The notes below the pieces were generated by a model that saw nothing but the letters and a program-made list of their open reading frames with translations, was not told the DNA's origin and made no database searches. The position numbers and the translations under genes were made by a program. Below are positions 6,011-23,375 of a DNA stretch of 64,000 bases, in pieces (position 1 is the first letter of the stretch; each line of letters begins with the position of its first letter). Location of the stretch: assembly GCA_030427925.1 (NCBI GenBank), contig JAUICJ010000010.1:1-64000 (forward strand). Direction: 5' to 3'. This DNA is from Bacteroidia bacterium (GTDB taxonomy: Bacteria > Bacteroidota > Bacteroidia > Flavobacteriales_D > Sanyastnellaceae).

Positions 6011-6559
6011 TCATTTCGACCAAACGGTGCGCCAGAGAACCGTCGCCACTGCGGATGCCATCACCGCTGCAATCACCAGCCCGAGCAGGGAAAGCCCCAG
6101 AAACAGCCGTTCATCGAAGATGGTGTCAATGGTCGCCAACTGCTGTTCAAGCGCGACTTCTCGGTCCCATTCGCCGCCGCCTTGGGCTTCCACAAAGGCC
6201 GCCCATTGGGCGTCGTCCTCCACCAGCGCGCGCGCTTCGGACTTCATCCGCTCCCGCCGCGCGTCCAACCCGTCCGCGGCAACCGTTCCGTACCAAACAA
6301 ACAACCCGGCTGCTGCCAGCGCAGCGAACCGCAACGGAGCCTTGCTCACTTCGCGAAACGCCGTCAAGAAATCCGGAAACTCCTCCCCGGAACGCAGCTT
6401 CACCCAGGCCCCGCCAAAGGCAAGCACCACGAGGATGAACAGGTTGAGCAGCGCGCCGACCTGCGCGCTGGTTTCCCATGGAACCGCACCCCAACCCACC
6501 AACTTCCATGCTCCCCAAACCAACAATCCGATCAGCGGAGCCCAACGCCACAAGATCAT
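6011..6559 (-). CDS. four-helix integral membrane protein (DUF4199-like)
   Basis: 182 aa with four predicted membrane helices at about 3-24, 31-53, 74-94 and 152-176, and a soluble, charged stretch of ~55 residues between helices 3 and 4. The layout ([11 protein letters not shown]... after helix 2, long loop, final helix) resembles the DUF4199 membrane proteins common in Bacteroidota, but no motif makes this sure. Its ATG overlaps the rho stop (ATGA), so it is made from the rho transcript. Role unknown. Confidence 0.55.
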
Positions 6560-8559
6560 CCGTTCATCGAGTTGAGGAAGTCCTCGTTCGTGCGCGTTTG
6601 TTCAATCCGTTCCTTCACAAACTCCATGGCTTCGATGGAATTCATGTCCGCGAGGTGCTTGCGCAGGATCCAAATCCGCTGCAGCGCATCGCGGTCCATG
6701 AGGAGGTCTTCTCGCCGCGTTCCGCTTGACAGGATGTCGATGGCGGGGTAGATGCGGCGGTTCGAAATGCGGCGGTCGAGCTGCAATTCCATGTTGCCCG
6801 TGCCCTTGAATTCCTCGAAGATGACGTCGTCCATTTTCGAACCGGTCTCGGTGAGCGCCGTTGCGATGATGCTGAGTGAACCGCCGTTTTCGATGTTCCG
6901 AGCGGCGCCGAAGAACCGCTTGGGCTTTTGCAGCGCATTCGCTTCAACACCGCCGGACAGGATCTTGCCGCTGCTCGGGCTGACCGTGTTGTAAGCGCGC
7001 GCGAGGCGCGTGATGGAGTCGAGGAGGATGCAGACGTCGTGCCCGCATTCGACCATGCGTTTGGCTTTTTCCAAGACCAAATCCGCAATCTTCACGTGGC
7101 GATCAGCCGGCTCATCAAACGTCGAAGCAATCACCTCGGCGTTCACGCTTCGCTTCATGTCCGTGACTTCCTCCGGGCGCTCATCGATGAGGAGGATGAT
7201 GAGGTAGACTTCGGGGTGGTTGATGGAAATGGCGTTCGCTACGTCTTTGAGCAAGGTGGTTTTACCGGTCTTCGGTTGCGAGACGATCATGCCGCGCTGT
7301 CCCTTTCCGATGGGAGCAAAGAGGTCCATGAGCCGCGTGCTGATGCCGCCGCCTCGGGTGCTCAATTTGAATCGCTCTTGCGGGAAAAGCGGTGTGAGGA
7401 ACTTGAAGGGAACGCGATCGCGCACCCATTCCACCGTGCGTCCATTGATGCTGACGACGTCGATGAGGGGGTAGAACTTTTCACCAATGCGGGGCGGGCG
7501 GATTTTCGCAATGACGGTGTCGCCGTTTTGCAGAGAAAACTGCTTGATTTGGCGGTTGCTCACGTAGATGTCGTCCGGCGAGTTCAGGTAGTTGTAGTCC
7601 GCAGAGCGCAAGAAGGCGTGGCCTTCGGTTTGAAGTTCCAACACGCCTTCGGCTTCGAGGATGCCGTCAAAGTTGAATCCGTGCTCGTCCGGTTCGCTGA
7701 TGAACTTGTCGCGCGGCTGGCGGCGGTTGTTGCGGTCGTTGCGTTCGCCTCGGTCGTTGCGTTCGCCTCGGTTGTTGCGGTCGTTGCGGTTGTTCCGGTT
7801 CGCACGTTCGTTTTGATCGCCTTGTTCCGTGCGGTTTCCGCGGTCGTTCTGCTCGTTGCGGTTGTTCCGGTTCGTACGTTCGTTTTGATCGCCTGGTTCC
7901 GTTCGGTTTCCGCGGTCGTTTTGCTCGTTGCGGTTGTTCCGGTTGGGGCGCTCGTTCTGATCGCCCTGGTCGGAGCGGTTTCCACGTTCGTTGCGGTTGT
8001 TCCGGTCGTTGCGGCCTTTCACCTCGTTGCCGCGGGGCGCTCGGTTATCGGTTCCTTTTTCGTCCGCCTCGACGGCTTCAGGAGCCTTTGCGGGTGCTTC
8101 CGCCGCGGTGTTGGAGGACTCGGCTTGTTCGGCGTTCCGCTGCCGACGTCCGCGCCGTTCGCGCAAGCGGTCGCCGGGTTTCGAAGGTTCCGCTGTGGCT
8201 TGATCCGCGGTGACACTGGCCTTTGGTGCTTCCGAGGGTACCGCTCCTGCAGGGGGAGCAGCGACAGCTGTGGGCGCTGCGTCCGCCTGGGGTGCCGCTT
8301 CGGCTTGCTTGGCTTTGCTCGGACGACCGGGGCGTCGGGCTGGCCGATCGGCTTTCGGTGCATCGGCAGCTTCTGGGGCAGCGGCTTGCGGCTTGGGCGC
8401 CGGCTTGGGCTGCGGAGTTGGACGCACCGCTTGCTCGTCGAGGATGGAGTAAACCAAATCCTGTTTCTTCAACTTGTCCAAGCGCTGCACGCCCAGTTTT
8501 TTCGCGATTTCACGCAATTCGGTAACCTTCTTACCGTTCAGTTCGATGATGTCGTACAT
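6556..8559 (-). CDS. rho: transcription termination factor Rho with long disordered Asn/Arg-rich insert
   Basis: 667 aa, far longer than the ~420 aa of E. coli Rho. Residues 1-45 form the Rho N-terminal helical domain ([12 protein letters not shown]...). Residues ~46-285 are a low-complexity region: first Pro/Ala/Lys-rich, then Asn/Arg/Asp/Gln-rich with a 24-residue tandem repeat. The cold-shock RNA-binding domain follows (about 290-370, [22 protein letters not shown]), then the RecA-type ATPase with Walker [10 protein letters not shown] and Walker [16 protein letters not shown]. Rho is a hexameric RNA translocase that ends transcription. A similar disordered insert in Bacteroides Rho is known to drive condensate formation. 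A TTG one codon upstream is less likely than the ATG at 8559. A four-helix membrane protein is translationally coupled downstream. Confidence 0.96.
7801..8010. repeat. 72-bp in-frame tandem repeat inside rho
   Basis: Two nearly identical 72-base units (7801-7872 and 7873-7944) are followed by a diverged third unit (7945 to about 8010). Each encodes a 24-residue unit of the type [20 protein letters not shown] + 4. Shorter Asn-Arg/Arg-Gly repeats extend down to about 7740. Because the period is a multiple of three, copy number could change without a frameshift. Confidence 0.85.
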
Positions 8560-8704
8560 CAAGGGGATTAATCAGAAATTCCAAAATAGAGTGGGAGCGT
8601 GGAATGATTCCGGTGCTCATGCGCTCAACTGGGACCAAACAGCAACCAAGGGCTCCCAAACGCTCCGCAATGATACGGAAACTTTTCCATCCTTCGAATG
8701 GCGT

Positions 8705-9196
8705 TCACCGGGGGCCCAATTCGACGAGTTCCATGTGTTGGATTTGGCCTCCCTCCACATCGAAGCGCAGGAGCGTGCGCACCTTGTGAAATCCGTGCAC
8801 GCCCGCTGCCCCCGGATTGATGTACAGCCCGCCCCACGACGCATCGCGTTGCACGCGCAAGAGGTGGCTGTGCCCGCAAATGAAGGCCTCGGGCCGTTCG
8901 CGCTGAAGGAGGTTGCGCACCCCGCTGGCGTAGCGATCGGGTCGCCCGCCGATGTGCCGCATCAGGAACTGCATGCCCCCGCATTCCCAGCGCCATTCCT
9001 CGGGAAATTCCGCGCGAATGCGGTGGTCGTCGATGTTGCCATACACCGCCCGCACCGGCGCCACTTGAGCCAAGGCGTCCGTCACGTCCAAGGAACCGAT
9101 GTCGCCCGCGTGCCAAATTTCATCCACCCCGCTGAGGTGATGGAGGATGCGGTCGTCGCAGTGGCTGTGGGTGTCGGAAAGCAGGCCGATGCGCAT
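8705..9196 (-). CDS. YfcE/MJ0936-type metallophosphoesterase
   Basis: 163 aa, typical family length. All metal-binding blocks of the calcineurin-like fold are present: LSDTHSH (residues 5-11), HAGDIG, YGNIDD and the C-terminal GHSH. Family members are Mn-dependent phosphodiesterases of unclear physiological substrate. The ATG at 9196 (MRIGLLSDTHS) is the natural family start; upstream in-frame extension would run into the divergent gene. It is divergent from the OmpA/PD40 gene with 51 bases between starts, and about 145 bases separate its stop from the rho start. Confidence 0.9.
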   Translation of the reverse strand: MRIGLLSDTHSHCDDRILHHLSGVDEIWHAGDIGSLDVTDALAQVAPVRAVYGNIDDHRIRAEFPEEWRWECGGMQFLMRHIGGRPDRYASGVRNLLQRERPEAFICGHSHLLRVQRDASWGGLYINPGAAGVHGFHKVRTLLRFDVEGGQIQHMELVELGPR

Positions 9197-9247
9197 GGCG
9201 TTGGATTGGGCATGCAAGTTGCGGCTTTTTTGGCCCAAATTGCAGCC

Positions 9248-11176
9248 ATGTTGAAGCCGCTGTTCACCGCGATCCTCGCCGCCGCTTTCGCGGCCCATTC
9301 ATTCGCCCAGCCCACCCTGTCCAGCGAGGACAAGCGCGCGGGCAAGGCTTACGAAGCAGGGCTCGAACATTACCTCCATGGCCGCATCGACGAGGCCTTG
9401 GAGTCGATTTCGGCCGCGCTGAAGCGGGATGAAGCGTTTTTCGAGGCGCACATGCTCAAAGGCCAAATCCTGGACGAAGCAGGCTACCCCGATGCCGCCG
9501 CCTCCGCTTACCTCGAAGGGTACGCCCTTCATCCTGAGCGCTTTCCGAAGGGGCGGCTCCGCCTGTGCCAGCTGCTTCACCGATCCGGCCGCTACGATGA
9601 AGGCCTTGACGCCCTCGCTGTCGCACAAGGACTTCCCAGTTGGGAACCCAATCCAGAGTGGGATGCCGTGACAGCCCACCTTCAGTTCGCTTCCCAAGCC
9701 ATCACCGCTCCCGTCGAACTCATTTCCCATCCGCTCGCAGGAGCCGTCAACACGCCAGCCCCAGAGTATTACCCGGCCATGACAGCGGATGGTCAAACCC
9801 TGTTGTTTACCCGCCAAATCGGAGGACGCAATGCCTTTGAGGGCCAAGAAGACTTCTTCACCGCCGTCCGAGTCGGCCCCGACGAATGGGGCAACGTCCA
9901 GCCCCTGCGCGGCATCAATACGCCGAACAACGAAGGCGCCCCCACGTTGCAAGGGGACGGAAAGAGGCTCGTGTTCACCGCTTGTTCTACCCTCGAAAAC
10001 GGCTACGGTCCGCGGACAGGAGCGGGCTCGTGCGACTTGTTTGAGGCGGAATGGAACGACCGCAGTGCGGCATTTGACCTGGGCCACAACCTTGGCGCCC
10101 CCAACACGCCCGCGTGGGAGAGCCAGCCCTCCCTTTCGGCCGACGGCACCACGTTGCTGTTCGTGCGCGCCAGCCGTGCAACGCGCGAGCGTCCCGCCCA
10201 GCAAGACATTTATGAGGCCCACCGGTTACCCGACGGTACGTGGTCGTCCGCCCGCCCCGTAGCCGGTCCGATCAACACGCCGGGCAGCGATGGCAACCCC
10301 GTTTTGCATCCGGATGGCAGCACGTTGTATTTCGTTTCGGACGGTCATCCGGGGCTGGGCGGCCTTGACCTGTTTCGCAGCGAGCGCCAGCCCGACGGCA
10401 GCTGGGGCGTCCCCGTGAACCTCGGATACCCCATCAACACGCACCACGACGAAAGCAGCGTCCTCGTGACTCCCGATGGGCGGTGGGCCTTGTTTGCTAC
10501 CGACCGCGATGAACCCGGCAACCTGGATTTGTGGGAACTGAAGCTTCCGGACGAATTGGTGGCGAAGGAGGTGCGGGTGCTGCGCGGACGGGTGTACGAC
10601 GTGAAGAGCGGCTTGGCCGTCGAGGCCACCGTCGATGTGGTTCAACCGGATGGTCGGGCCATTGCTCGGGTGCAGTCAGCTGCCGCTGGCGGCGGTTTTG
10701 AACTGCCCATGCCCGAAGGCGATGCCTTGCGGTTTCGGGTGGACCATCCGCAGTATGCCTTTTATTCTGAGCTCGTTTCTTGGGAGGAAGTGGATGCCGA
10801 TCGCGAGGTGGAAATCGGGTTGACGCGTTTTGAAGTGGGCACGGTGCTTACGCTCAAGGATGTCCGATTTGCCTCGGGATCTGCGGACTTGGAGGCCGTT
10901 TTCCAGCCCGAGTTGGAGCAATTGGCGGCCTTGTTGTTGGCCAACGAAGAGCGGGTCCAAATCATCGGACACACCGACAACCGCGGCAGTTCCTCCACCA
11001 ACCAAGCCCTCAGCGAAGCGCGGGCCGAAGCCGTGCGCGCTTACCTCGCAGAAAAAGGCGTTCCGACCGAGCGCATGCTGACGGAAGGCCGAGGCGACGG
11101 CGCTCCCATTGCCACCAACGAAACGGAGGCGGGCCGCGCGCTGAATCGCCGAACAGAGATCGTCGTCATCGAGTAA
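9248..11176 (+). CDS. OmpA-family envelope protein with TPR and PD40 repeats (PorE-like layout)
   Basis: 642 aa. Order of parts: signal peptide (LAAAFAAHSFA|Q, about 1-22); TPR-like helices (about 25-140); a six-bladed PD40/WD40-like propeller (about 160-440) with repeated PxxSxDGxTLLF and FVSDGHPGLGGLDLF motifs; a carboxypeptidase-regulatory-like domain (about 445-530, VLRGRVYDVKSGLAVEA); and an OmpA C-terminal peptidoglycan-binding domain (about 540-642) with IIGHTDNRGSS and a final NRRTEIVV. This layout matches PorE, which ties the T9SS to peptidoglycan, but no lipobox Cys is seen, whereas PorE is a lipoprotein. The frame is open far upstream, but the signal peptide fixes the ATG at 9248. 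It converges on the next gene with an 11-base overlap. Confidence 0.85.
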   Translation: MLKPLFTAILAAAFAAHSFAQPTLSSEDKRAGKAYEAGLEHYLHGRIDEALESISAALKRDEAFFEAHMLKGQILDEAGYPDAAASAYLEGYALHPERFPKGRLRLCQLLHRSGRYDEGLDALAVAQGLPSWEPNPEWDAVTAHLQFASQAITAPVELISHPLAGAVNTPAPEYYPAMTADGQTLLFTRQIGGRNAFEGQEDFFTAVRVGPDEWGNVQPLRGINTPNNEGAPTLQGDGKRLVFTACSTLENGYGPRTGAGSCDLFEAEWNDRSAAFDLGHNLGAPNTPAWESQPSLSADGTTLLFVRASRATRERPAQQDIYEAHRLPDGTWSSARPVAGPINTPGSDGNPVLHPDGSTLYFVSDGHPGLGGLDLFRSERQPDGSWGVPVNLGYPINTHHDESSVLVTPDGRWALFATDRDEPGNLDLWELKLPDELVAKEVRVLRGRVYDVKSGLAVEATVDVVQPDGRAIARVQSAAAGGGFELPMPEGDALRFRVDHPQYAFYSELVSWEEVDADREVEIGLTRFEVGTVLTLKDVRFASGSADLEAVFQPELEQLAALLLANEERVQIIGHTDNRGSSSTNQALSEARAEAVRAYLAEKGVPTERMLTEGRGDGAPIATNETEAGRALNRRTEIVVIE

Positions 11177-13124
11177 CCCCCGACCACCGCAGGCCCACCT
11201 CCCATTGCCGCGGAGCCACGGGGTTGTAGTACTTGCCGCCGAAGGCATTCACCTGGTACCAATCCGAATGCGCGCTGTTGGATGCATTCAGCACCCCAAC
11301 CCGAAACGTCCACGTCGCCACCCGATAGCGCACCGCCGCATCCAACCGGTGAAAGGCCGGCGACCAGTCGGTTCCTGCGTTGTTCAAAGGCGAGCGGTCG
11401 TTCCAACGCCACCGCGCTTCCACGAACCACCGATCCTTCTCGTACACGGAGCTCGCACCGGCCGCGTGCAACGGGGTTCCCGGCATCGTAAATGGAGCGG
11501 ACGAAGCCAAGGCAATCACCTCGAACCGATTCCAGGTCGTCCAGGCCCGCAATCGCCAATTCCCCGCCTTCCCGCTGCACACCGCTTCCATGCCGCGCAT
11601 GTTCAGGACGTCCGCATTGGCCATCACCGGAGCATCGTTGGCCCCGGGAGTGAGGGAGATGGCATCGTCGACGCGCTGATGAAACGCCGAAAATTGGGCC
11701 AAAAAAGGGCCGCGTTCCCATGCCATTCCCGCTTCGAGGGCTTGTCCCCATTCGGATTTCAAGTCGTAGGCTGCGAGTGAATTGGGATCCACCAGTTCGA
11801 ATGTGGTGGGGATGCTGACGCCCGTTCCCCATTCAGCGAAGCCCTGCAGGTGACGCCCCAACGGGACCGAAACGCCGGCTCGAGGCAAGAACCGAACTTC
11901 GCTGAATGCTTCATGGAACGGGAGGCTGTCCAGGACCGATCCTCGGGTCTGTCGGTGAACGCCGTTTGCAGCGGCGCCCGCGTGCCAGGAAAGGCCGCTT
12001 GAGCGGACTTGGCGCACCCCGGCCGTGCCCCAGCCCCGTCCCGTGGTGCTGGTGAGGTCGTAGCGCGTCACCGGGCCGTTCAATTCCAATTCCTGAAGCG
12101 CTGTTTGGTCGCCTTGACCGATGGCTTGCGCGTGCCACGACCACCGCGACTTGGGCGTTTCGATCAGGAGCCCCTGGCGCGCCCAACGCAAGGAAAACCC
12201 GCGCCCCTGTTCGTATTTGTCTCCGTTGAAGAAGGGAGTCGTTCCGTACGGGTTGTGCTTGTCGGTCATGGTGGCCAGGACCCAGAGCCCTTGGTCCGGC
12301 TGGTTGCTGCGGGTCGAGCTCCAGCCCAACGCGGCCCGGCGCCGGGCGACGTGGGCGTTGTATTCGGTGCCGGGGGCGGCGGTGGGGAAGGATGCGTTTT
12401 GGTCTGCGTCCAAGCTGCCGGGCAACTCCCACCACCCGTCGTACAACCCCAGCCAGATGTGCTGATCGCGCTGCGGCCCTTCCATCCGATGGTGAATGCT
12501 CGCTTGCCACTTGCCATTCGCCTCCTGGGCGCGATACCCGGGATGCTGACTGGCCAAAATCGATGCCGCCACCGCCCCGTGCGCCGCATGCGCCGCCACA
12601 AAATGCGCCCCACCTGAACCCGCCGCACCGGCTCCCAACGTGGCCGCTCGCAACACGCCCGACGTGGTCGCCTCCCGAGAATGTGCCCACAGCGCGCCCG
12701 CATATCCCCCACCCAACACCGCCCCGGTGGGGCCCGTCATGGCATCCAGCCCCGCGAGCAGTTCCGGATCCATCCACTCCATCGGCGTTTCCCCGTCGGC
12801 GGTCGTCAGCACAAAACCATCCAACAGCAAGAACACGTTGCGCACCCCAAACGGCGAGCGCAACGAACTCCCGCGCATCCGAATCCTCCTCGATCCACCC
12901 GCTCCCCGCGTCTCCATCTTCACCCCGGGAAGCTGGTTCAAGGCCGCTTCGAGGTCGATCGCATCCCGCACGTCCTCCGCTTCAATTCGGTGAACGGTAG
13001 CGAAGACCGGAACCGTCGACTGAACCGTGGCCACCGGGGAGGCCTCGACGCGAACGGTGTCCGTGGGGCCGGCTGCGAGCAAGGCTCCAGCCCAAAAGGT
13101 TGCTGCGAACAGCCCTGCGGTCAC
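11166..13124 (-). CDS. TonB-dependent receptor, PqqU/YncD-like plug, coupled to a PQQ-type dehydrogenase
   Basis: 652 aa starting at a GTG that overlaps the dehydrogenase stop (GTGA). A signal peptide (about 1-18) is followed by a plug domain (about 35-160) with GSRRIRMRGSSLRSPFGVRN, LLLDGF, an ADGETP turn and LDAMTGPTG, then a 22-strand-type barrel ending LRWSGVTR. The RGxxxRSxFGVR...DG...xxADGxT pattern resembles plugs of receptors such as YncD/PqqU, which imports the cofactor PQQ in E. coli. Coupling to a PQQ-type sugar dehydrogenase supports a cofactor-uptake role, but this is inference; many Bacteroidota receptors of unknown ligand share this plug. The final residue is not aromatic, which is less usual. 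Confidence 0.8.
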   Translation of the reverse strand: MTAGLFAATFWAGALLAAGPTDTVRVEASPVATVQSTVPVFATVHRIEAEDVRDAIDLEAALNQLPGVKMETRGAGGSRRIRMRGSSLRSPFGVRNVFLLLDGFVLTTADGETPMEWMDPELLAGLDAMTGPTGAVLGGGYAGALWAHSREATTSGVLRAATLGAGAAGSGGAHFVAAHAAHGAVAASILASQHPGYRAQEANGKWQASIHHRMEGPQRDQHIWLGLYDGWWELPGSLDADQNASFPTAAPGTEYNAHVARRRAALGWSSTRSNQPDQGLWVLATMTDKHNPYGTTPFFNGDKYEQGRGFSLRWARQGLLIETPKSRWSWHAQAIGQGDQTALQELELNGPVTRYDLTSTTGRGWGTAGVRQVRSSGLSWHAGAAANGVHRQTRGSVLDSLPFHEAFSEVRFLPRAGVSVPLGRHLQGFAEWGTGVSIPTTFELVDPNSLAAYDLKSEWGQALEAGMAWERGPFLAQFSAFHQRVDDAISLTPGANDAPVMANADVLNMRGMEAVCSGKAGNWRLRAWTTWNRFEVIALASSAPFTMPGTPLHAAGASSVYEKDRWFVEARWRWNDRSPLNNAGTDWSPAFHRLDAAVRYRVATWTFRVGVLNASNSAHSDWYQVNAFGGKYYNPVAPRQWEVGLRWSGVTR

Positions 13125-14512
13125 TGGACGGTGAAGGTCAAGGTTTGGGTCCTATTTCCATCCGTGATGCGGAGGAAGTAGGGCCCTGCGCTCCACGCGC
13201 TGGTGTTGATGGTCCACTCCGTTTTCTGGACGGTGCCTGCGGCTACGCGCTTGCCGGAAAAACTCACCACTTCCCAACGCGAAGTGCTGGAAGTGGAGGG
13301 GAATTGAACGGTGAGCATGCCGAAGTTGGGGTTGGGGAAAGCGGTCAATTGAGGCCCCTCGGGCACCCATTCCACGTTGGAGGCGAACGCCTCGTTCTTG
13401 AATTCCTTGATGATGTTGGGGCCGCTTCCGGGGTAGCTGACGCCATTGAAGGCCACGTAAACCGCACCGGTGTAAGGGTTGACGGCCACGTCGCGAACGC
13501 GCTGGTTGAACGATGAGAAGAACTGCTCTTCGGATTCGATGGATGTGCCATCGGCGTTGAGGTGGAGCACGCTCAAGCGCTCATAAGCGCCGCTCAGCCC
13601 TCCGAGTACGGCCATGAGCACGCTGTTCTGCCATTCCGGAATCGCCGGGTGGTCGTAGTACTCGATGCCATTGACGGCCACGCAGGGCGTCCATGCCATC
13701 AGCGGCTCGGTGACGTCGTTGGCCGCACAGAACGCTTGCTCCCCGAGGGTGTTGCAGAAGCCCTGCACGTCGGGCCAACCGTAGTTTCCGCCCGCGGTGA
13801 CGATGTTGAATTCATCGTCGCTGTTTTGGCCGTGTTCGGAGGCGTAAATCAGGCCGTTGGGGCCGAGCGCCAGTCCCTGCGTGTTGCGGTTCCCGTAGGT
13901 GTAGACGTAGCTGTCGGGGAAGGGGTTGTCAGCCGGGATGCTGCCGTCGAGGTTGAGGCGGAGGATCTTGCCTTGCAACGAGTTCAGATTGGGCGCGTTC
14001 GATGAGGTGCCCAAATCCCCAGCCGTCATCAAAAGCGTGTGGTCGGGCAGCACCAAGAGGCGGCTCCCGTTGTGGATGCCGCCTGCGCCGAGCGTCAGGA
14101 GCACCTCTTCGTTCACAAGGGCGCTGCCGTTCCAATCGAATGCGCTGAGGCGCTCTTCACCGTTCCACCCGCTTCCCGTGCAGTAAACGAGGTAGACCTT
14201 GGGGGTGTTCGCCCAATCGGGGTGCATCGCCATGCCGAGCAATCCCGGCTCGCCGTTGCCGTTGTTCATCACGTTCAGCGAGAGGACCGTGGTGTAACTG
14301 CCGTTGCTCGGGTCGATGCGCAACACTTCTCCGGGGCGGGTCGTGCACCACAGGTGGTCGTCCGGGCCCCAAAGGAGTTCCCACGGCAGGTTCACGCCCG
14401 TCACGAGGTCGGATTCGGTCAAGGTCGTGTTGCCGACGGTCCAGGTTTGGCCCCAAAGCGTGGTGGCGCTCAGCAAGGCGGCCGCGGAAAAAAGGTGGTA
14501 AAAACGCATCAT
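13121..14512 (-). CDS. secreted PQQ-type sugar dehydrogenase with T9SS tail
   Basis: 463 aa. After a signal peptide (..AAALLSATTLWG|Q) comes a six-bladed propeller of the soluble glucose/aldose dehydrogenase (HHIP-like) family. Visible landmarks are LPWELLWGPDDHLWCTTRPG, GEPGLLGMAMHPDW, GGIHNGSRLLVLPD, the YGNRNTQGLALGP turn and EHGQNSDDEFNIV...GGNYGWP, which are typical of PQQ- and Ca-binding sites. The last ~80 residues (TAFPNPNFGMLTVQF... GPYFLRI) are a T9SS sorting tail, so the enzyme should be exported to the surface or medium and oxidise sugars there. Upstream in-frame codons lie outside a plausible signal peptide; the tandem ATGs at 14512/14509 are chosen. It is first in a two-gene unit with the TonB receptor. 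Confidence 0.88.
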   Translation of the reverse strand: MMRFYHLFSAAALLSATTLWGQTWTVGNTTLTESDLVTGVNLPWELLWGPDDHLWCTTRPGEVLRIDPSNGSYTTVLSLNVMNNGNGEPGLLGMAMHPDWANTPKVYLVYCTGSGWNGEERLSAFDWNGSALVNEEVLLTLGAGGIHNGSRLLVLPDHTLLMTAGDLGTSSNAPNLNSLQGKILRLNLDGSIPADNPFPDSYVYTYGNRNTQGLALGPNGLIYASEHGQNSDDEFNIVTAGGNYGWPDVQGFCNTLGEQAFCAANDVTEPLMAWTPCVAVNGIEYYDHPAIPEWQNSVLMAVLGGLSGAYERLSVLHLNADGTSIESEEQFFSSFNQRVRDVAVNPYTGAVYVAFNGVSYPGSGPNIIKEFKNEAFASNVEWVPEGPQLTAFPNPNFGMLTVQFPSTSSTSRWEVVSFSGKRVAAGTVQKTEWTINTSAWSAGPYFLRITDGNRTQTLTFTVQ

Positions 14513-14568: not shown

Positions 14569-15102
14569 ATGCACCGAGCTTTTTTCTTCCTGGTCGCGAC
14601 GACCGCTTTCAGCGCTTGGAATGCCGCGCTTCATGCCCAAACTCCGGATTGGATGTTCGCCCTCGAAGGCGCGTACATTGGGCGTTACGAGGTTCCCGAT
14701 CCCTCCGGACTCAAGGACGAGCTGACTTCGGATGCGCGGTTGGATGGCCGGCGCAATTTGAGCGAAAACGGGTTCGTGTTGCAGTGGATGATCGAAGGCG
14801 AATCGGGCGTCGTGGAAACGCTGTCCACGTGGCATTGGAAGGAAGGCCAAATGTGCGAAACGGAAATCGTAGACGGACGCCCCGCCGAAGTTTGTTGGCT
14901 CTTGCACGGCCAAACGAACCACGCCGTGGTGCTCCGCCGAGGCGGTGAATGGGAAGGTCAAGCCATGCTGTTCGAACGCACGGTGGAACGGCTCCCCGGC
15001 CAACTCCGCATCACCGACCAGCACAACAACGGCGATGGAACCTGGCGCTTCCACCACGGCTTCGTTTTCGAAGAAATGAAACCGGAAGCCTCCAAGCGTT
15101 AA
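14569..15102 (+). CDS. secreted protein of unknown function
   Basis: 177 aa. A clear signal peptide (MHRAFFFLVATTAFSAWNAALHA|Q) fixes the start at 14569. The mature part (about 24-177) is a single compact, probably beta-rich domain with two Cys that could pair (MCETE.. and EVCWLL) and motifs YIGRYEVPDPSG, NGFVLQWMIEGES and GDGTWRFHHGF. It has lipocalin-like flavour but I recognise no family. It is divergent from the PQQ dehydrogenase and its stop overlaps the stop of the amylase gene by 4 bases on the other strand. Confidence 0.6.
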   Translation: MHRAFFFLVATTAFSAWNAALHAQTPDWMFALEGAYIGRYEVPDPSGLKDELTSDARLDGRRNLSENGFVLQWMIEGESGVVETLSTWHWKEGQMCETEIVDGRPAEVCWLLHGQTNHAVVLRRGGEWEGQAMLFERTVERLPGQLRITDQHNNGDGTWRFHHGFVFEEMKPEASKR

Positions 15103-17414
15103 CGTCCGACCGCCACGGTGCTCCTTCCCGCAAGCACGCCCGCTTCCAGCTCACCTGCGAGGATGCGGCCGTGGGCATCGATGTGTTTGGGCTCCGGTCC
15201 CTTGTTGATCCACACCTCCGTGACTTCCCCGAGGTAGCGCCGTTCGATGCGGATCACATCCCGATCCACCACTTCGTATTCGGTGTCCCCGTACATCAGG
15301 CTCATGCGCTCGGACCGCAGGTGCGCCCACGTCGAAGCGTGATCCCAGGTTCGCTGTTCGTCTTCATTCGCGAGCTCGAAGCGCATCATCTTCCGGTTGT
15401 CGGGGTCGTTGCCTCCCACGTCGGCGTATTCGTCCCCGTAGTAAAAACACGGAACCCCCGGAATGCTGAACAGGTAGGCCGTGAGGAGCTGCATCTTGGC
15501 GTAGCCCGCCTTGCCGTTGTGCTCGATCGTGCGCGTCCATCCGGCCAGTTTTGCGTCTTCGTCGAGGGCGACGGAACCGTCGGCGAGTGACGTAAACCTC
15601 GGGCGGTCTTGGTTGCCCGTGATGTTGCCCATCAGGTGATGCGCGCCATACGTGTCGAGGCTTTGTTGCGCCACGGAGGCCAAGTCATCGAACGAGGCGG
15701 AGTCGTCCGCAAATGCCACCACCATCGCGTCGTAGTGGTTGAAATCGAATTGGGCATCGAGCATTCCGCTGGACAGGTAGGAATGAATGAGTTCTGGACT
15801 GCCGTAGGTCTCTCCGATTTGGAAGACATTGCGGTTGCCGCCGGTTTCGGCCTTGATTTTCGCCGTCAGGCTGCGCCAAAAAGCCTCCGGGATGTGCTTC
15901 GTCGCGTCGTGCCGGAACCCGTCGATTTCGGAATGCTGGATCCACCACACCGCGCTGTCCGTCATCGCATCCACCACTTCGGGACGGGAAAAGTCGAGCG
16001 TCGGCATGAACGTGTCGAACCACGTGGTCAAGCGCTGCTCGTCCCAAAGCTGCGTGTTTTCTCTCCCGTCCGGCAGGTACAGCGACGTGGCCCAATCCGG
16101 GTGCTGCTGGTAAACCGGGTGCTCTTGATGCACATGGTTCGCCACATAATCCACCAGCACGTTCAAGCCGTGGTCGTGGGCGGTTTCCACCACCGAATTG
16201 AATGCTTGCATGGTACCGAATCGGCGATCGGTTCCCGTTGAACGAACGGGCCAGTAACCGTGGTACCCGCTGAACGCGCTCGTTGTTTCCGTGGACGGGT
16301 CGGACCACCAACCGAAGGCGCTGTCCGGATTTGGTACAATGGGAGAAACCCAAACCGTGTTCACCCCCAGGTCCTCGAAATAGCCCCGTTCCACGGCTTG
16401 TTCAAGCCCTGCGAAATCGCCACCGTGGTGGTTCGCCCGCGGATGGATTCGGGGGTCGGCGACCGGTTCGTCGTTGGTCGGATCGCCGTTTGCGAACCGG
16501 TCGATCATGAGGAAGTACATCACCATCGCTTGGCGATCGTCGCGGGTGAGCCGCTTCGGGTCCTCGATGGGCACCCCCCATTCTAAGGGAATGAGGACCA
16601 TCGGGCTCACCCCGTGTTCGTCGGCAAGCCAAAGCCGCAAATGGGACCGCCTCAAGCCGTAGGCAGCAGCGGGCACCCGAACCTGTGCGCTTCCCGACGA
16701 ATCGAGGGTGGAGGAGGCGTACAGGTGGTTGTCCCACCAACCGAAGAGCCTAGCTCCCGGAGTGCCCTCGAGCAGCAAGTCGTTGACGTGTTCGCCCGGT
16801 TCGTGACGGACGGCGACCCACTCTGGAGCTGGTCCCGGTTCGGGGACCGAGAGGATGGAATTGAAAGCACCGAAGCCATTCGGGCGTTGGGGGACGCCGG
16901 GTTCCGCTTGCCATTCGCCGTGCATGCGCACTTGGTAGGGGTGTTCTCCGGGAGGCAAGTGGAACACCGCGCGGTTCCGGCCATCGGTTTGTGTCAAATC
17001 ATTTGGAGCCCAACCCGTGAAGCTGCCTTTGAGTTGCGCCACGCCGATGTCTTCGTAAAACGGCCCCAACTCGTAATCGATGCGCTGGAGGCGGGATCGG
17101 AGTACGGGCACGTCTCGCGCTGCTCCATTCACCCAGAGCTGCAGGAATCCAAGTGCCAGCTTGGGGGCTTGGGTGATGCAGATTTGGCCTTCCACCACGT
17201 CCAACTCCGATCCATCCTCCCAGGTGGCCCGCTCGAGCGACTCCGAGGCCAGCAGGAAATCGGAAACGGGAATCCACGTCGTGTCCGGGAGCAGACTCAC
17301 CGGATGCCAAGGCAGCGCATGGGGCGCGCGGTTCGTGGAATCAACCAGGGCATCGGGCGCTGAGCCGCAGCTCATCAGCACACCGAACATCAGCAAGGGA
17401 AACAAGTGGCGCAT
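15099..17414 (-). CDS. GH13 alpha-amylase/neopullulanase-like lipoprotein
   Basis: 771 aa. The start at 17414 gives a lipoprotein signal (MRHLFPLLMFGVLMSC), so the enzyme is membrane-anchored. The first ~310 residues form one or two beta-sandwich (E-set/CBM-like) domains. The GH13 barrel follows with all four conserved regions: DYVANHVHQ (I), GFRHDATKH with the nucleophile Asp (II), QIGETYG with the acid Glu (III) and GNQDRPRF (IV). Region IV reads NQD instead of the commoner NHD, as in some SusA-type neopullulanases. It should trim maltodextrins or pullulan in the periplasm or at the surface. It is the last gene of the susC-susD operon, 59 bases after the preceding stop, with a hairpin in between. 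Confidence 0.9.
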   Translation of the reverse strand: MRHLFPLLMFGVLMSCGSAPDALVDSTNRAPHALPWHPVSLLPDTTWIPVSDFLLASESLERATWEDGSELDVVEGQICITQAPKLALGFLQLWVNGAARDVPVLRSRLQRIDYELGPFYEDIGVAQLKGSFTGWAPNDLTQTDGRNRAVFHLPPGEHPYQVRMHGEWQAEPGVPQRPNGFGAFNSILSVPEPGPAPEWVAVRHEPGEHVNDLLLEGTPGARLFGWWDNHLYASSTLDSSGSAQVRVPAAAYGLRRSHLRLWLADEHGVSPMVLIPLEWGVPIEDPKRLTRDDRQAMVMYFLMIDRFANGDPTNDEPVADPRIHPRANHHGGDFAGLEQAVERGYFEDLGVNTVWVSPIVPNPDSAFGWWSDPSTETTSAFSGYHGYWPVRSTGTDRRFGTMQAFNSVVETAHDHGLNVLVDYVANHVHQEHPVYQQHPDWATSLYLPDGRENTQLWDEQRLTTWFDTFMPTLDFSRPEVVDAMTDSAVWWIQHSEIDGFRHDATKHIPEAFWRSLTAKIKAETGGNRNVFQIGETYGSPELIHSYLSSGMLDAQFDFNHYDAMVVAFADDSASFDDLASVAQQSLDTYGAHHLMGNITGNQDRPRFTSLADGSVALDEDAKLAGWTRTIEHNGKAGYAKMQLLTAYLFSIPGVPCFYYGDEYADVGGNDPDNRKMMRFELANEDEQRTWDHASTWAHLRSERMSLMYGDTEYEVVDRDVIRIERRYLGEVTEVWINKGPEPKHIDAHGRILAGELEAGVLAGRSTVAVGR

Positions 17415-17430
17415 GGGAAAAGGCAATGAA

Positions 17431-17454
17431 AACGGGCGACCGGAGCCGCCCGTT
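17431..17454 (-). terminator. intercistronic stem-loop before the amylase gene
   Basis: Perfect 8-bp inverted repeat AACGGGCG / CGCCCGTT with an 8-base loop, lying between the small secreted-protein gene and the amylase gene. On the minus strand the stem is followed by TTTTC, so it may act as a weak terminator or RNA-stabilising hairpin that lowers amylase expression relative to susCD. Confidence 0.45.
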
Positions 17455-17473
17455 CGAGGGAATTCAAGGGGGA

Positions 17474-18322
17474 TTACTCGCAATCGAGGAAGCTGATGAT
17501 TTCAAAAGGCGGCGGCCCTGGAGGGTAGTTGAAGCCGGGACGCACCACGTAGTACCACAATTCTTGAAGCTGTTCTCCTTCCGAGAGCACGTCGGCGAAC
17601 AAATCTTCCGGGATGAAGGTCATCCGGAACTTGCCTTCTCCGATGTCTTCCATTTGGAGTTCGGGCGTGTTCACCACGTCGGCCAGTGCCACGTATTCGT
17701 AGCTCGTGAACAAATCCACTTTGGCCAAGACGTACAAGTAGCATTCATCCGACCCCATGTTTTGCAAGCCCTCGTACGTTTCTTGCGCGTTGTCATACGT
17801 GATGCTCAAGAAGTCATCGTGTTCCCGCAGCTCCGGGAAGATGCACATCCGCGCGGAACAAAGTTGGGGAATGATGTCGACGTGCAGGTCTTCGCTCTTG
17901 GCTTCGAATTGAAAGCCGTCCATCGGTCCGCCGTTTTTGAGTTTGGCCAAACACGAAATGCCCAACGAAAACAGCTGCGGCCCGTCGACGCCGTAGTACT
18001 CAGTCGGGACGAACGTCATGGAATACAGCATGTTGCCCACCTTCGTGAGCGCTTGATGGTCCGCCGAGTTGTCCCAATCGCCGTTTCCTTGAGCGGGGCC
18101 CGCTGGCTGCCACGTCCAGAGGTAAACCGTGGTGTCGGGGAACGCTTCAAGGATGGCCTTCAGTCCGTTGTTTTGGATGCCGTCCTCCGATTTGCTCATG
18201 TCGATGTAGAGCGTCATTTCGGAATTGGCGTCGGTGGGAGAGGGCAGGACGTAGGCTTTTTGGGCCCCAACCGAACCCGCTACCGCGAGGAGTGCACAGG
18301 CACTGAAAAGTTGCTTCAACAT
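17474..18322 (-). CDS. secreted protein in SusE/F position, unknown family
   Basis: 282 aa with a signal peptide (MLKQLFSACALLAVAGSVGA|Q). The mature protein appears beta-rich, perhaps two similar halves: an opening AYVLPSPTDANSEMTLYIDMS, a VYLWTWQPAG stretch and a second part with CYLYVLAKVDLF and MTFIPEDLF. Six or so Cys residues could form disulphides; it ends with a free Cys-Glu. Its place directly after susD and a small lipoprotein, where starch-binding SusE/SusF-type proteins usually sit, and several exposed Trp/Tyr suggest glycan binding. This is inference from position; no named domain was recognised. The gene sits 7 bases after the preceding stop. Confidence 0.6.
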   Translation of the reverse strand: MLKQLFSACALLAVAGSVGAQKAYVLPSPTDANSEMTLYIDMSKSEDGIQNNGLKAILEAFPDTTVYLWTWQPAGPAQGNGDWDNSADHQALTKVGNMLYSMTFVPTEYYGVDGPQLFSLGISCLAKLKNGGPMDGFQFEAKSEDLHVDIIPQLCSARMCIFPELREHDDFLSITYDNAQETYEGLQNMGSDECYLYVLAKVDLFTSYEYVALADVVNTPELQMEDIGEGKFRMTFIPEDLFADVLSEGEQLQELWYYVVRPGFNYPPGPPPFEIISFLDCE

Positions 18323-18329
18323 CTTGAAA

Positions 18330-18815
18330 TCAATTCTGGCGGGTGAATGAGAACGTGTACACCACGGTCGTGGTTCCTGAGCAATCGCGTCGGTACTCGA
18401 TGTTCAACTCGTTGTCGAACGGACGGATCATGCCGCCGAGGTTGTACACCAGCGTGTCGGAAGAATAGAGCTCCAAATACGAAGGATAATCCGGGTCGTC
18501 AAACGACCACGTTCCCCCTTCACCGAAGTAGTTCTTGCCCAGTTCAAGGGCAACATCGTACGTACCATCAGCCGCGAAGTTCAGTTCAAGCGGCGTGGTC
18601 ACCCCGTCGATGTAGAAGTGGCTCAAATCGCGCACTTCCTTGACGGGGCTGTTCAGGTCTTGCTGGGTGAAAGCGGTCAACTGCCACGTGCCCGTCATCC
18701 CGGCCACCTTGTCGAAGGGTTCCCCCAACTCACCGGTGATTTCCGGCTTGCATCCCGCAAAGATGGCGAAAGCGGCGAGCGCAGCAAACGCCCCAAATTT
18801 CATTGATTGTTTCAT
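18330..18815 (-). CDS. small lipocalin-like lipoprotein (DUF5004-like)
   Basis: 161 aa from the ATG 10 bases after susD; the lipobox FAIFAGC marks an envelope lipoprotein. The mature opening KPEITGELGEPFDKVAGMTGTWQLTAF..D resembles DUF5004 proteins that accompany SusCD pairs in Bacteroidota, and the rest alternates beta-strands like a lipocalin half. It is probably an accessory surface or periplasmic protein of the glucan uptake complex. The family assignment rests on the opening motif only. A TTG three codons earlier is a less likely start. Confidence 0.65.
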   Translation of the reverse strand: MKQSMKFGAFAALAAFAIFAGCKPEITGELGEPFDKVAGMTGTWQLTAFTQQDLNSPVKEVRDLSHFYIDGVTTPLELNFAADGTYDVALELGKNYFGEGGTWSFDDPDYPSYLELYSSDTLVYNLGGMIRPFDNELNIEYRRDCSGTTTVVYTFSFTRQN

Positions 18816-18825
18816 GGCTTTCAAA

Positions 18826-20193
18826 TTAGAGGCATCCGCCTTCTTCGTTCAACACAAATCCCGCTGCGGTGGTCTCCGAATTGGAGAACTGCAAAAGCAT
18901 GCCGGGGCAATCCCAAGCAGCGCCTCGGATTTCAATGTCTTCGCCCATGACCCCTCGTCGAACGAGTTGGTCCGTCCATTGGCCTTCGCACACGGTTTCT
19001 TTCCGGAACTCGTCGCGCGCCGCATCGCGCACCTCCGTTGCGGTGGCGTCCGCCGATAACGGGTTGTTCCCCACCCCAAATGCCCGGTCGCGAATGGCAT
19101 TCACATCGGCAATCGCCGTGCTCAAGTCCGTGCCGAGCTCGGCCAACGCCTCAGCGCGCAGCAGGTGCAAGCCCGTCAAGTGCACCACGGGCACATTGAA
19201 GTACTCCTTGTCGTTGAACCGGTTGCACAGGTAGCGCGTGCCGGTGTTCGTGATCCACGTTGAGCGCGCATCGCCACCGCCCGACAGGCTCATGAAGAAA
19301 TTAAAATCTTCGCTGAAGCTCAATTGCGGCGACGGGTTGTTGTCGCTGCGGAGGTTGTCGCGGTACCACGTGCTGCGGTTGTCCTGAATCCGGCTGATGA
19401 TGCCAAACACCGTCTCCGGATTGACCACATCCGCCTCATACCGATCCAAATCCGCATCCAATGCAAATGCGCCCGAGTTGATGACTTGCGTGGCGTAATC
19501 AGCCGCCGCTTCAAAATTCAGCATGAGGAAGTTCACCTGGGCGAGGTAGCCCAGCGCCGAGTACTTGGTCGCGTAGACGCCATTCGACTCGGGGAGGTTC
19601 GCCGCAGCGAACTCGAGGTCCTCGAGGATGGCAGCGTACACATCGCCCACGGTGGCACGCGGCAGCGGCTCCTGCGAGGTCTCAAGGCGCAAGGGCACCC
19701 CGAGGTGGCTGTTGTCCGGGGTGTACCCGTATGGTTGCGCGAACAACTTCACTGCTCCCCAATGGCACACCGCCCGAACGAAGCGCGCTTCGGCCTCCAT
19801 GCGGTTCCGCTCAGCCTCGCTCAAATCGCTCACGAGGTCGAAGTTCTCGATCATCACGTTCGACCGGTATATGGCGAAGTAGAAATCGGTGTAGGCCCCG
19901 CCGTTGATGCCCGTGAAGAACGTCGTTTCGCGGTTGTACACCGCATCGAAATCGAGGCTGTTGTCGGGAGAGCCGAAGTTGTCACCGCGGAGTTCATTGA
20001 TGATTTGGATGCGCCCTCCATAGAGGTTGCCCAACACATCGTAAGAACTGACGAGCAAGCGTTGCAGGTCGTCCGCCGTATTGATGGCATCTTCTGCCAA
20101 AATCACATCGCCCGGCTCAAAGTCCAGCAGGCGGTCGCACGAAGCCAATCCCATCAGGAGCGCTCCAGCGAACAAAAGGTTTCGGAGTTTCAT
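18826..20193 (-). CDS. susD: SusD/RagB-family glycan-binding lipoprotein
   Basis: 455 aa. A lipoprotein signal (MKLRNLLFAGALLMGLASC) is followed by the SusD opening DRLLDFEPGDVI...AINTADDLQRLLVSSYDVLG, the TPR-like helical scaffold and the C-terminal half with LHLLRAEALAELG and DVNAIRDRAF, all standard for the family. SusD caps the SusC barrel and captures oligosaccharides at the cell surface. It lies 11 bases after susC, co-transcribed. The substrate is inferred as alpha-glucan from the neighbouring amylases and maltose phosphorylase. Confidence 0.93.
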   Translation of the reverse strand: MKLRNLLFAGALLMGLASCDRLLDFEPGDVILAEDAINTADDLQRLLVSSYDVLGNLYGGRIQIINELRGDNFGSPDNSLDFDAVYNRETTFFTGINGGAYTDFYFAIYRSNVMIENFDLVSDLSEAERNRMEAEARFVRAVCHWGAVKLFAQPYGYTPDNSHLGVPLRLETSQEPLPRATVGDVYAAILEDLEFAAANLPESNGVYATKYSALGYLAQVNFLMLNFEAAADYATQVINSGAFALDADLDRYEADVVNPETVFGIISRIQDNRSTWYRDNLRSDNNPSPQLSFSEDFNFFMSLSGGGDARSTWITNTGTRYLCNRFNDKEYFNVPVVHLTGLHLLRAEALAELGTDLSTAIADVNAIRDRAFGVGNNPLSADATATEVRDAARDEFRKETVCEGQWTDQLVRRGVMGEDIEIRGAAWDCPGMLLQFSNSETTAAGFVLNEEGGCL

Positions 20194-20204
20194 GGTGTAA
20201 GGGA

Positions 20205-23200
20205 TCAGAAGTTCGTGGTAAGGCTCAACGTGAAGGCGCGCTCTTGAGGCGGCGTCAAGTAGGTGACGTTCGGGCTCATGTTGCGGTCTTGCGCGTTCTC
20301 AAAATCCCGCACAACCTCGGGGTCGAGCCCCGGGAAGTTGGTGATGGTGAACAGGTTGGTCACGTTGAACGCGATGCGGAAGCTGTTGAAGTCCCGGCCC
20401 ACTGCGGAGAAGTTGGGGACGTTGTACCCGAGGGTCACGTTCCGCAAGCGCAAGTAGGACGCGTCGAAAACGAAGAGGCTCGTGTTCCACCACGGGAATC
20501 CAGCGGGCAAGCTGTACGTCGTTTCATCGAGCGTCAACCGCGGGTAGGTCGACTCGTCTCCGGGTTGGCGCCACCGATCGAGGATTTCCGTCCGCATGTT
20601 CCAGCCCGATACCACGCCGAGTTGCCGCTTCGCCGATGAGTCGAAAATCTTCGCCCCGACGCTGAACGTCGCCAGCGCACTCAAGTCCCAGTTCTTCCAG
20701 CGGAACGTGTTGTTCATGCCGCCGATGAGGTCGGGCAGTCCGTCGCCCACGTACTTCCGGATGTTGTTGTTGTAATCGTACGTTTCGTTTCCGTCCAAAT
20801 CCAAGTACACCGGCAACCCATTGTCCGGGTCGATGTGGCTGTGCTCCACGAGGTAGAACGAACCGACCGGCTTGCCCACGATGACGCGCGAGTCGTTGGT
20901 GCCCCCGCTCACTGCGTCCGGTGTGTAGTTCCCGATGTCCACCAGCTCGTTGTAGTTGCGAGCCAAATTCAAATCCGTCGTCCACTCGAATTCCCCCACG
21001 AGGTTCCGCGACTTGATCGAGAACTCCAGTCCGCGGTTCAAGATCGTGGCCACGTTGTCCCAGTAGTTCGTGAAACCGGTGCTCGCCGGCGTGCTCACGT
21101 TCATCAAGACGTCCTTCGACAGCTTGTGGTACGCCGCCAATTCCATCGTCACGCGGTCTTCCCACAGGCCCATTTCCACCGACGCGTCAAACGTCCGCGA
21201 CGTCTCCCACTTCAGCGACGGGTTCTCCGGTTGCAGCGGGAACAAGATCGAGTCAGCGGCGTACGTGATGCCGTTGTCCCGAGCTGAGTAGGTGCCAAAC
21301 CGCGCGTAGTCCGGCAACGCGGCGTTCCCCGTTTTGCCCCAGCTCGTCCGCAACTTCAAGAAGCTGAGCTTCTCCGCGTTGAACCAGTCCTCGTCCGAAA
21401 TCACCCAACCCGCTGAAAGCGAAGGGAAGAAGCCATAACGGTTGTCCCGACCGAAACGCGAGCTGCCGTCCACCCGCGCCGTTCCTTGGAAGAAGTAGCG
21501 GTCCTGCAGCGTGTAGTTGACCCGACCGAAGTACGAAAGGAAACTGTGCTGGCTCGGGTTGTTTTGCGTCCGGTTCACCTCCGTCGCATCCGTCAGCAAC
21601 GAATCCACCTCGAAAACCGGCCCCGTGACATCGGGATAGAACAGGCTGTAGCCGTAGTTGTCCGTGCGTTGGAATTCCGTTCCAAGGAGGAAGCTCAGGC
21701 TCTGCGTGTCATCGAGTTCCAAGTAGTAATCCGCCGTCGCGCTGGTGTTCCAATTGAGCACGTAGTTCGCGTAGCGGTTCGCACTGCCCAAATCCGTGGT
21801 GATCGACAAACCGCCCGGGTTGTACTGGTCGTCGCGCAAGTGCAGGTAATCGAAGCCGCCGCTGACCTTGATGTTCAGGTCTTCCATGGGGTTGACGATG
21901 ACTTGAACGTTGTTGATGGAACGGTTTTCCGTGCTCCGCCACCGCTTCAGTTCGCGCACAGCCGTGGGGTTCTTCGTTCCGCCCCATTCATCGAACCACA
22001 AAAAGTACTCTCCGGCTTGGTGCAGCGTGTCACCGCCCGCCGAGATTTCCGCTTCGTCGTAGTAGACCGGGTAATAGGGGAGGGCGTTCGACATGGCATC
22101 GCCCAACCCGCCAGACCACGCGGCATCGACGCGGTTGTTGCGGCCTTGGCTTAACGAAGCGCTCGCCATGACGGTCATCCACTCGGTGGGAGTGAAGTCG
22201 AAGTTCGCCCGTCCGCTGATGCGTTCGTAGCTGTTGCCGAGCAGGTAGCTCTCGTTGTTGTCGTAGCTGATGCCGCCGTAGAAGTTGTAGTCCTCGCCGC
22301 CTTTGCGTGCGCCGAAGCTGTACGCGTGTTTGACGCCTGTGCCAATGGTTTGGTCCACCCAATCCGTGTTGGTTCCCAGCGCATTGAGGTAGGCTTCCTT
22401 GCGCGTTTCAGCATCGTCGGCGGCACTCGTCAAGTTGGGGAGCCAAACGTAGCCGGTGCCCCCGTCGTTCTCCCACGCTTCTTGCCGCAGCGCCAGGTAC
22501 TGTTCGGTGCTCAGCATGTTGGGAAGGGTGGCTGGTGTGGCCAAACCTGCGCGCGAACTGAATTCAAAGCTGGTGCCTTTCCGGCCGCGCTTCGTCGTGA
22601 TCAAAATGACCCCATTCGCCCCGCGCGACCCGTAGATGCCGGTCGCGGCGGCGTCCTTGAGGATCTCGACGCTCTCGATGTCATTGGGGTTGATGGCGGC
22701 CAGCGGGTTGTTGTTCAACGCCCCCGAATTCCCGCGCAGGAAGTAGTCCTGCGTAATCGGAATGCCGTCGACCACGTAGAGCGGATCACCGGCCGCCGAG
22801 ACGGAAGCCACGCCGCGGACTCGGATGAGCGATGGGGCGCCGGCGATGCCGGAAGATTGCGAAACCTGCACCCCGGCCGCTTGGCCTTGCAAGGCGGCTT
22901 CGAAGGACGGGGTTTGGACCGCGGTGATTTGCTTCGAGTCCACCGAAGTGATGGAACCCGTCACTTCTTTCGCTCGCTGCACGCCATAGCCGATGACCAC
23001 GACGTCCTCGATCATCACCGCGTCCTCCTTGAGGCGCACATTCAGTTCGAGCGTTTGACCGGCGGCCAGTTCGATCTGGCGGGTTTCCTTGAGGTACCCG
23101 ATGAACGTGAAGTCCACGGTGTGGCTGCCGGGCGACAGGTTCAGGGTGTAGTTCCCGTCGAAATCGGTGAACACCCCTTTGGCGCCGCCGTCTGCCAGGA

Positions 23201-23318: not shown

Positions 23319-23336
23319 GATGTTGGTTTGATGCCA

Positions 23337-23344
23337 CAAACTTA
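23337..23344 (-). promoter_or_regulatory. susC -7 promoter element (TAAGTTTG)
   Basis: TAAGTTTG on the minus strand is a full TAnnTTTG match, 18 bases before the susC ATG. It abuts the 31-base inverted repeat, so a protein bound there would cover the spacer or -33 region. It shows that susC has its own promoter separate from the upstream amylase gene. Confidence 0.65.
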
Positions 23345-23375
23345 GTGAGAAGGTGTCATTTCTACACCTTCTCAC
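23345..23375. promoter_or_regulatory. 31-base inverted repeat at the susC promoter (candidate operator)
   Basis: Perfect 12-bp arms GTGAGAAGGTGT and ACACCTTCTCAC around a 7-base centre. The core GTGT-7 bases-ACAC has the same half-site outer bases and spacing as the palindromes at 26246-26260 and 29260-29274. It lies 8 bases after the amylase stop and could also fold as an RNA hairpin, but no T-run follows on the minus strand, so an operator is the better reading. Confidence 0.55.

Follow-up and report, generated by a model that had tools for sequence, protein, structure and literature searches.

The window analysed here (the whole 64,000-nucleotide stretch of Bacteroidota DNA, positions 1 to 64,000 of contig JAUICJ010000010.1) contains a gene for a dehydrogenase of the glucose/sorbosone dehydrogenase (GSDH) family which runs, with overlapping stop and start codons, into a gene for a TonB-dependent receptor of the PqqU superfamily. 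The tight and conserved pairing of these two genes is the strongest result of the analysis. Found in this bacterium and in most of its relatives, the pair suggests, without proving it, a scavenging of the vitamin-like cofactor pyrroloquinoline quinone (PQQ) by which the cell would run the sugar-oxidising enzyme.

The dehydrogenase gene is located upstream and the receptor gene downstream on a common strand, with the following features:

13121-14512, minus strand: GSDH-family (PF07995) sugar dehydrogenase of a propeller family, 463 amino acids, with PF07995 and type IX secretion system (T9SS) matches
11166-13124, minus strand: TonB-dependent receptor of the PqqU superfamily in a non-canonical sister clade, 652 amino acids, with Plug and TonB_dep_Rec domains
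13121-13124, minus strand: GTGA overlap in the sequence, formed by the dehydrogenase stop TGA and the receptor start GTG

The gene pair with its overlapping stop and start is confirmed at these coordinates. The coding-strand sequence spanning the junction is CCAGTGACCGC, with the GTG at 13124-13122 and the TGA at 13123-13121, which gives an overlap of four bases, in agreement with an earlier note on this DNA that had reported a GTG start of the receptor overlapping the dehydrogenase stop.

The gene pair is conserved in the home family

A survey covered 101 genomes belonging to the taxonomic family of the window bacterium (the home family). With receptors counted at E<=1e-20, 80 of these genomes had the receptor, and GSDH was present in 96. 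Of the 80 genomes with the receptor, 67 carry a GSDH gene directly upstream of it in the same orientation, which is more than chance would give, and the pair was seen in 16 of 21 genera when loci were read. Among the 13 receptor genomes without the pairing, three (G018, G025, and G079) have the receptor less than 500 bases from the upstream edge of its contig, and receptor and GSDH are truly separate in others, for instance in G008 and G049, both of genus g9, and in G021. Of 18 other home-family loci, 17 have a candidate receptor start, with ATG, GTG, and TTG accepted, at -4 to +12 nucleotides relative to the GSDH stop, and the exception has it at +37; this is a raw count without a shuffled control.

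The dehydrogenase is export-tagged and a plausible quinoprotein

The dehydrogenase matches PF07995 (E 9.5e-70, 235.9 bits, cut-off 25), and among solved structures it comes closest to quinoprotein glucose dehydrogenase B and further glucose/sorbosone dehydrogenases. With TIGR03606, the model for the glucose/sorbosone family of PQQ-dependent dehydrogenases, it obtains 215.6 bits, which is under the cut-off of 434.55, and the same model was matched at E<=0.001 in all 26 members of a set of GSDH orthologues. This set includes the window protein; 27 proteins were collected and one of them (L067), a GSDH unlike the others with 28% identity, was left out. A signal sequence is recognised by eye at the N-terminus, and amino acids 392-463 match a T9SS type A sorting domain (PF18962, 1.8e-9; TIGR04183, 41 bits, cut-off 23), a tail that was matched at E<=0.001 in 24 of the 26 orthologues. 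Inspection by eye of the N-terminal region revealed no lipobox cysteine, the protein having the T9SS tail instead.

Seven residues of the PQQ pocket (H147, R209, N210, H227, G228, R338, and R340) are invariant in all 26 orthologues. H147, R209/N210, and R338/R340 are the equivalents of His144, Arg228/Asn229, and Arg406/Arg408 in the Acinetobacter enzyme, and H227-G228 represents the His-Gly at the calcium loop, as in E. coli YliI. The role of Arg406, and likewise Gln246, of the Acinetobacter enzyme are presumed here. No conserved lysine equivalent to Lys377 is present in the aligned loop of the 26 orthologues; R312, which is located near the Lys377 position and is invariant in all of them, may serve as a stand-in in the window protein. 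His144, Arg228, Asn229, and Gly247/Pro248 are described in passages of PMC6881810, and Arg408 and Lys377 in passages of PMC6881789, where a fungal AA12 structure is likewise reported without Lys377. By its retained PQQ-pocket residues the dehydrogenase is a plausible quinoprotein, and the export-tagged dehydrogenase of PQQ type proposed in the earlier note is borne out by the PF07995 match, the T9SS tail, and these residues. A second GSDH-family protein of 507 amino acids (94 bits to PF07995) is encoded in the same genome on another contig (C32, L003, 1246-2769, plus strand).

GSDH genes accompany receptors of the PqqU superfamily across Bacteroidota

A phylum-wide sample comprised 296 Bacteroidota genomes, with at most three receptor candidates scored per genome. 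A strong receptor was defined by E<=1e-50 to the profile of the window clade and a GSDH by E<=1e-30, and some genomes with a true PqqU whose match is split into fragments fall under the first of these thresholds. GSDH was detected in 110 of 122 strong-receptor genomes versus 77 of 174 others (Fisher 4e-17, a value that ignores kinship and genome size). Among the matches listed for both searches, the best match to E. coli PqqU was also the best match to the window-clade profile in 110 of 115 genomes (two of the 110 being fragments of one gene; exceptions G130, G265, G348, G373, and G393), and as a single gene tops both searches, the receptor subgroups are rarely found side by side.

PqqU is recognised, according to passages of PMC12124388, by a signature of three residues: tyrosine, phenylalanine, or tryptophan at position 99, R304, and R365. 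Among 130 receptor places listed, six had a listed GSDH within 510 bases. In L183 (G169) a GSDH-cytochrome c fusion is located just upstream of a receptor bearing F99, R304, and R365, and in L184 (G330) GSDH and a receptor that has all three signature residues are arranged divergently. In L179 (G202) GSDH lies beside a receptor of a third subgroup (iii), and in L180-L182 (G317, G167, and G241) it is convergent with a subgroup iii receptor, with a small gene between them. In L180 this small gene encodes a cytochrome c, and genes related to it are present in L179, L181, and L182; the arrangement in L180-L182 suggests a dedicated electron acceptor. As L179-L184 were picked for GSDH adjacency, they are examples and not a rate; L180-L182 come from a single genus, and receptor rows were obtained for 39 of 40 loci, L193 being the one without. 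In the 34 loci not picked for adjacency, a weaker GSDH-fold gene was present within 6 kb in four (L167, L168, L178, and L187; PF07995 45-86 bits), a count made without a random-position control; in L177, another of the 34, GSDH is 18 kb away, with none within 6 kb. The finding of GSDH beside all three receptor subgroups, including true PqqU, is the main reason for considering PQQ as the ligand of the window receptor.

The receptor probably belongs to a sister clade of PqqU

The closest solved relatives of the window receptor are YncD (6v81, E 5.2e-11) and PqqU (9c4o, 6.9e-11), followed by heme receptors at 2.5e-3 and weaker, and its best NCBIfam model is NF041535, the model for PqqU (E 2.9e-14). 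The signature residues were checked in 23 home-family receptors using two alignments, in which the barrel region is aligned with uncertainty. An aromatic residue at PqqU position 99 was present in 22 of the 23 (20 phenylalanines and two tyrosines; the remaining receptor has a threonine), the window receptor having F92. Among Bacteroidota matches to E. coli PqqU, all three signature residues were present in 24 of the 28 that were readable (30 rows minus L083 and L089). Four receptors (L094, L096, L100, and L102) form a distinct subgroup within the PqqU side which does not show the signature (serine or threonine at 99, lysine at 304, isoleucine at 365) and has the plug motif GSRSN[S/T]GIR; this subgroup possibly has another ligand.

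A wider tree was obtained with PqqU, the window clade, and 17 other TonB receptors (FecA, FhuA, FepA, CirA, and BtuB from E. coli and 12 from these genomes), using a quick search with the SH-like approximate likelihood ratio test (SH-aLRT) as the only support and showing several long branches. In this tree PqqU and the window clade stand on one side as sister clades (SH-aLRT 99), and subgroup iii adjoins the window clade. When only the E. coli outgroups were included, an unrooted three-way split was obtained, with the groups meeting at one point. This small tree holds a split of both receptor clades and the E. coli siderophore and vitamin receptors versus PqqU (91/97), and as that split is already contained in the unrooted tree, the case for a sister relationship with PqqU depends on the wider tree. 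A split of PqqU and subgroup iii versus the window clade and the E. coli receptors was rejected by the approximately unbiased (AU) test (p 0.008, tested for both sides). Identity as a ferric citrate receptor of the FecA type was also rejected, FecA falling with the other receptors in the wider tree. The clustering with siderophore or vitamin receptors that the earlier note had named as an argument against its proposal was not encountered for FecA, FhuA, FepA, CirA, or BtuB, the small unrooted tree giving the three-way split.

PQQ biosynthesis genes were not found

The earlier note had reported no PQQ biosynthesis genes in the window and had considered a pqq operon as speaking against scavenging; neither such genes nor an operon were found in searches with pqqB, pqqE, and pqqC models, which constitute a weak test. 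The genome of the window, which is 99.5% complete, gave only sub-cut-off matches to the pqqB and pqqE models (34.4 of 245 bits and 57.8 of 381 bits, respectively) and pqqC had no match in the 101 family genomes including this one, and as no control genome scored over the cut-off with any of the three models, absence is likely rather than proven. In passages of PMC12124388, PQQ biosynthesis is described as missing from all 206 Bacteroidota encoders of PqqU.

Proposed uptake of PQQ for the co-encoded dehydrogenase

The likeliest account of the pair, which is held with moderate confidence, is that the receptor takes up PQQ in order to load the co-encoded exported dehydrogenase. In the mechanism that we infer, which extends to translational coupling, the ligand, periplasmic loading, surface location, and the substrate, the two genes would form a translationally coupled operon serving PQQ-dependent sugar oxidation. 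The receptor of the PqqU sister clade would bind scarce environmental PQQ and, powered by TonB, carry it to the periplasm, and the GSDH propeller made together with it would take up PQQ and Ca2+ in the periplasm and fold there. The loaded enzyme would then exit via the T9SS to the cell surface and oxidise aldoses, for example those released by the products of the neighbouring amylase and Sus-type genes, with electrons passing to an acceptor. T9SS cargo folds in the periplasm before export, which would account for the need of an importer by an enzyme that is itself exported.

Several observations weigh against this account. The equivalog score of the receptor with NF041535 is 52.3 bits, far under the cut-off of 1200. 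Depending on the alignment, R304 was present in two or none of the 23 home-family receptors, the window receptor having a threonine, and R365 in none of them, a gap or another residue being found at this position; a charge swap of R304 and R365 impairs E. coli PqqU, as reported in passages of PMC12124388. Without these two arginines the window receptor is not classifiable as PqqU and is assigned to the PqqU superfamily only, so that of the PqqU-like receptor of the earlier note the kinship stands, by the best solved match and the wider tree, and the identity with PqqU does not. The barrels of the home-family receptors have invariant residues (R261, R263, K289, K303, and E305) that are less retained by the clade elsewhere and may replace the lost contacts or mean another ligand; the basic ones among them, R261, R263, K289, and K303, could replace the absent arginines. 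K289 and N291 align with the PQQ-site positions Q308 and Q310 of PqqU in one alignment and elsewhere in two others, and as alanine at 308 or 310 does not slow growth of E. coli (passages of PMC12124388), this correspondence is a hint at most.

The distribution of the two genes also provides points on this side. In genus g10, GSDH is present in 11 of 13 genomes with no such receptor, and canonical PqqU, considered as a substitute, was rejected as none of the 11 g10 genomes tested had a match at E<=1e-8. In genus g8, both genomes have GSDH without the receptor, the one weak match grouping with other receptors. As g10 and g8 retain GSDH, the enzyme can do without the receptor. Twelve strong-receptor genomes were without GSDH at E<=1e-30, and same-clade receptors from outside the home family had a GSDH-fold gene within 6 kb (blastp) in two of 18 loci (L159-L176). 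Finally, an enzyme at the surface might obtain its PQQ directly from the surroundings with no importer, a point that the earlier note did not raise.

Alternative explanations for the gene pair

The receptor might import the product or substrate of the enzyme (an aldonate, a lactone, a sugar, or an iron-aldonate chelate) instead of PQQ. The missing signature residues, the barrel residues invariant in the home family and less retained elsewhere, and the nearby amylase and SusD/SusC-like genes would all suit such a ligand, but the receptor is related to PqqU and not to FecA or others, and GSDH pairs with signature-bearing PqqU too. Moreover, sugar receptors in Bacteroidota are usually of the SusC type with SusD. 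Import of a product or substrate is a possible, rather unlikely explanation.

The catalytic His147, present in all 26 orthologues as expected for an enzyme, speaks against the idea that the exported GSDH acts as a lid that caps the receptor at the surface, traps PQQ, and hands it over, perhaps acting as an enzyme too. Known lids are lipoproteins whereas no lipobox was recognised by eye in the window protein, and the cytochrome c fused to (L183) or neighbouring (L180) GSDHs beside PqqU or subgroup iii fits electron-transfer enzymes. On the other hand, a lid would account for the pairing of a surface protein with an importer, and the tight conserved gene coupling and the T9SS tail, matched in all but two of the 26 orthologues, agree with it. 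Precedents in Bacteroidota are BtuG-BtuB and XusB-XusA, in which a surface beta-propeller caps a TonB receptor and passes on to it the scarce ligand that it has captured, and very tight binding is compatible with hand-over according to passages of PMC10404256 and PMC13142918. By analogy with these systems a PQQ lid is conceivable, though improbable. Still more doubtful is a combined function, in which a T9SS-displayed quinoprotein would oxidise sugars and also trap PQQ at the surface for a new, signature-less clade of PqqU, that is, a family-wide cofactor-scavenging lid that is not a lipoprotein.

Co-transcription under shared regulation without a common ligand, the receptor serving another scarce compound such as heme, a siderophore, or another quinone, is the least probable of these explanations, as the tight pairing in 16 of 21 family genera and the recurrence of GSDH beside three PqqU-superfamily subgroups argue against it, although GSDH without receptor in g10, the receptor and GSDH standing apart in several g9 genomes and G021, and the 12 strong-receptor genomes without GSDH would be in its favour.

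Neighbouring genes and a plausible substrate

Of three g10 loci read, two have GSDH directly after an alpha-amylase gene and the third has it near one, and together with the amylase and SusD-/SusC-like genes near the window pair this makes starch-derived sugars a plausible substrate. The amylase gene of the window is context and not part of the core:

15099-17483, minus strand: alpha-amylase-family protein (PF00128), near the pair

It belongs to a series of genes adjoining the pair (15099-23375, minus strand) which encode the alpha-amylase-family protein, proteins with weak DUF4961 and DUF5004 matches, and SusD-like and SusC-like proteins, and which looks like a locus for starch or glycan uptake. 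On the other side, the convergent neighbour (8474-11176, plus strand) encodes WD40-like PD40 repeats, an OmpA domain, and weak TPR matches; its distant relatives are PorE-type T9SS proteins and CHU_0125 proteins, with scores below cut-off. The product of 6556-8562 (minus strand), which we take to resemble the transcription terminator Rho, has a long repetitive stretch rich in arginine and asparagine toward its N-terminus.

Significance and comparison with known systems

In the census of PMC12124388, receptors were filtered by the three-residue signature, and quinoproteins were searched with a published dehydrogenase profile together with PF01011, PF13360, and PF13570, PF07995 not being named in its main text; the paper leaves open the role of PQQ in encoders without a recognised quinoprotein. 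The pair described here suggests that an entire sister clade of candidate PQQ receptors is excluded by the signature filter and that enzymes of the GSDH family have been overlooked as partners, GSDH also adjoining signature-bearing PqqU. If true, PQQ cross-feeding would have a wider reach in Bacteroidota, and the question would be raised whether the T9SS exports the PQQ-loaded enzyme or whether the cofactor is captured outside. No description of a GSDH-TonB receptor operon was found in the open-licence literature searched. The parts are known and their combination is conserved, and the pair would add a new form of PQQ scavenging, PQQ being the putative ligand.

The window receptor resembles E. 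coli PqqU (YncD) in that this is its best solved match, in the plug aromatic at position 99, and in its place on the same side of the wider tree versus 17 other receptors, and for the majority of genomes in the comparison a single gene is the top match both to E. coli PqqU and to the window-clade profile. Unlike PqqU, it is without R304 and R365, forms a separate and, in the wider tree, well supported sister clade, scores under the NF041535 cut-off, and is co-encoded with its own export-tagged GSDH. The dehydrogenase shares with Acinetobacter GdhB and YliI the fold family, the catalytic histidine, the Arg-Asn pair, and the two C-terminal arginines, and with YliI the His-Gly calcium loop, whereas it differs from both by the missing Lys377, the T9SS tail, the score below TIGR03606, and the co-encoded TonB receptor. 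As in BtuG-BtuB and XusB-XusA, a beta-propeller gene stands beside a TonB receptor gene in Bacteroidota; however, BtuG and XusB are seven-bladed lipoproteins, whereas the window propeller belongs to the GSDH family and combines a T9SS tail with a conserved catalytic site.

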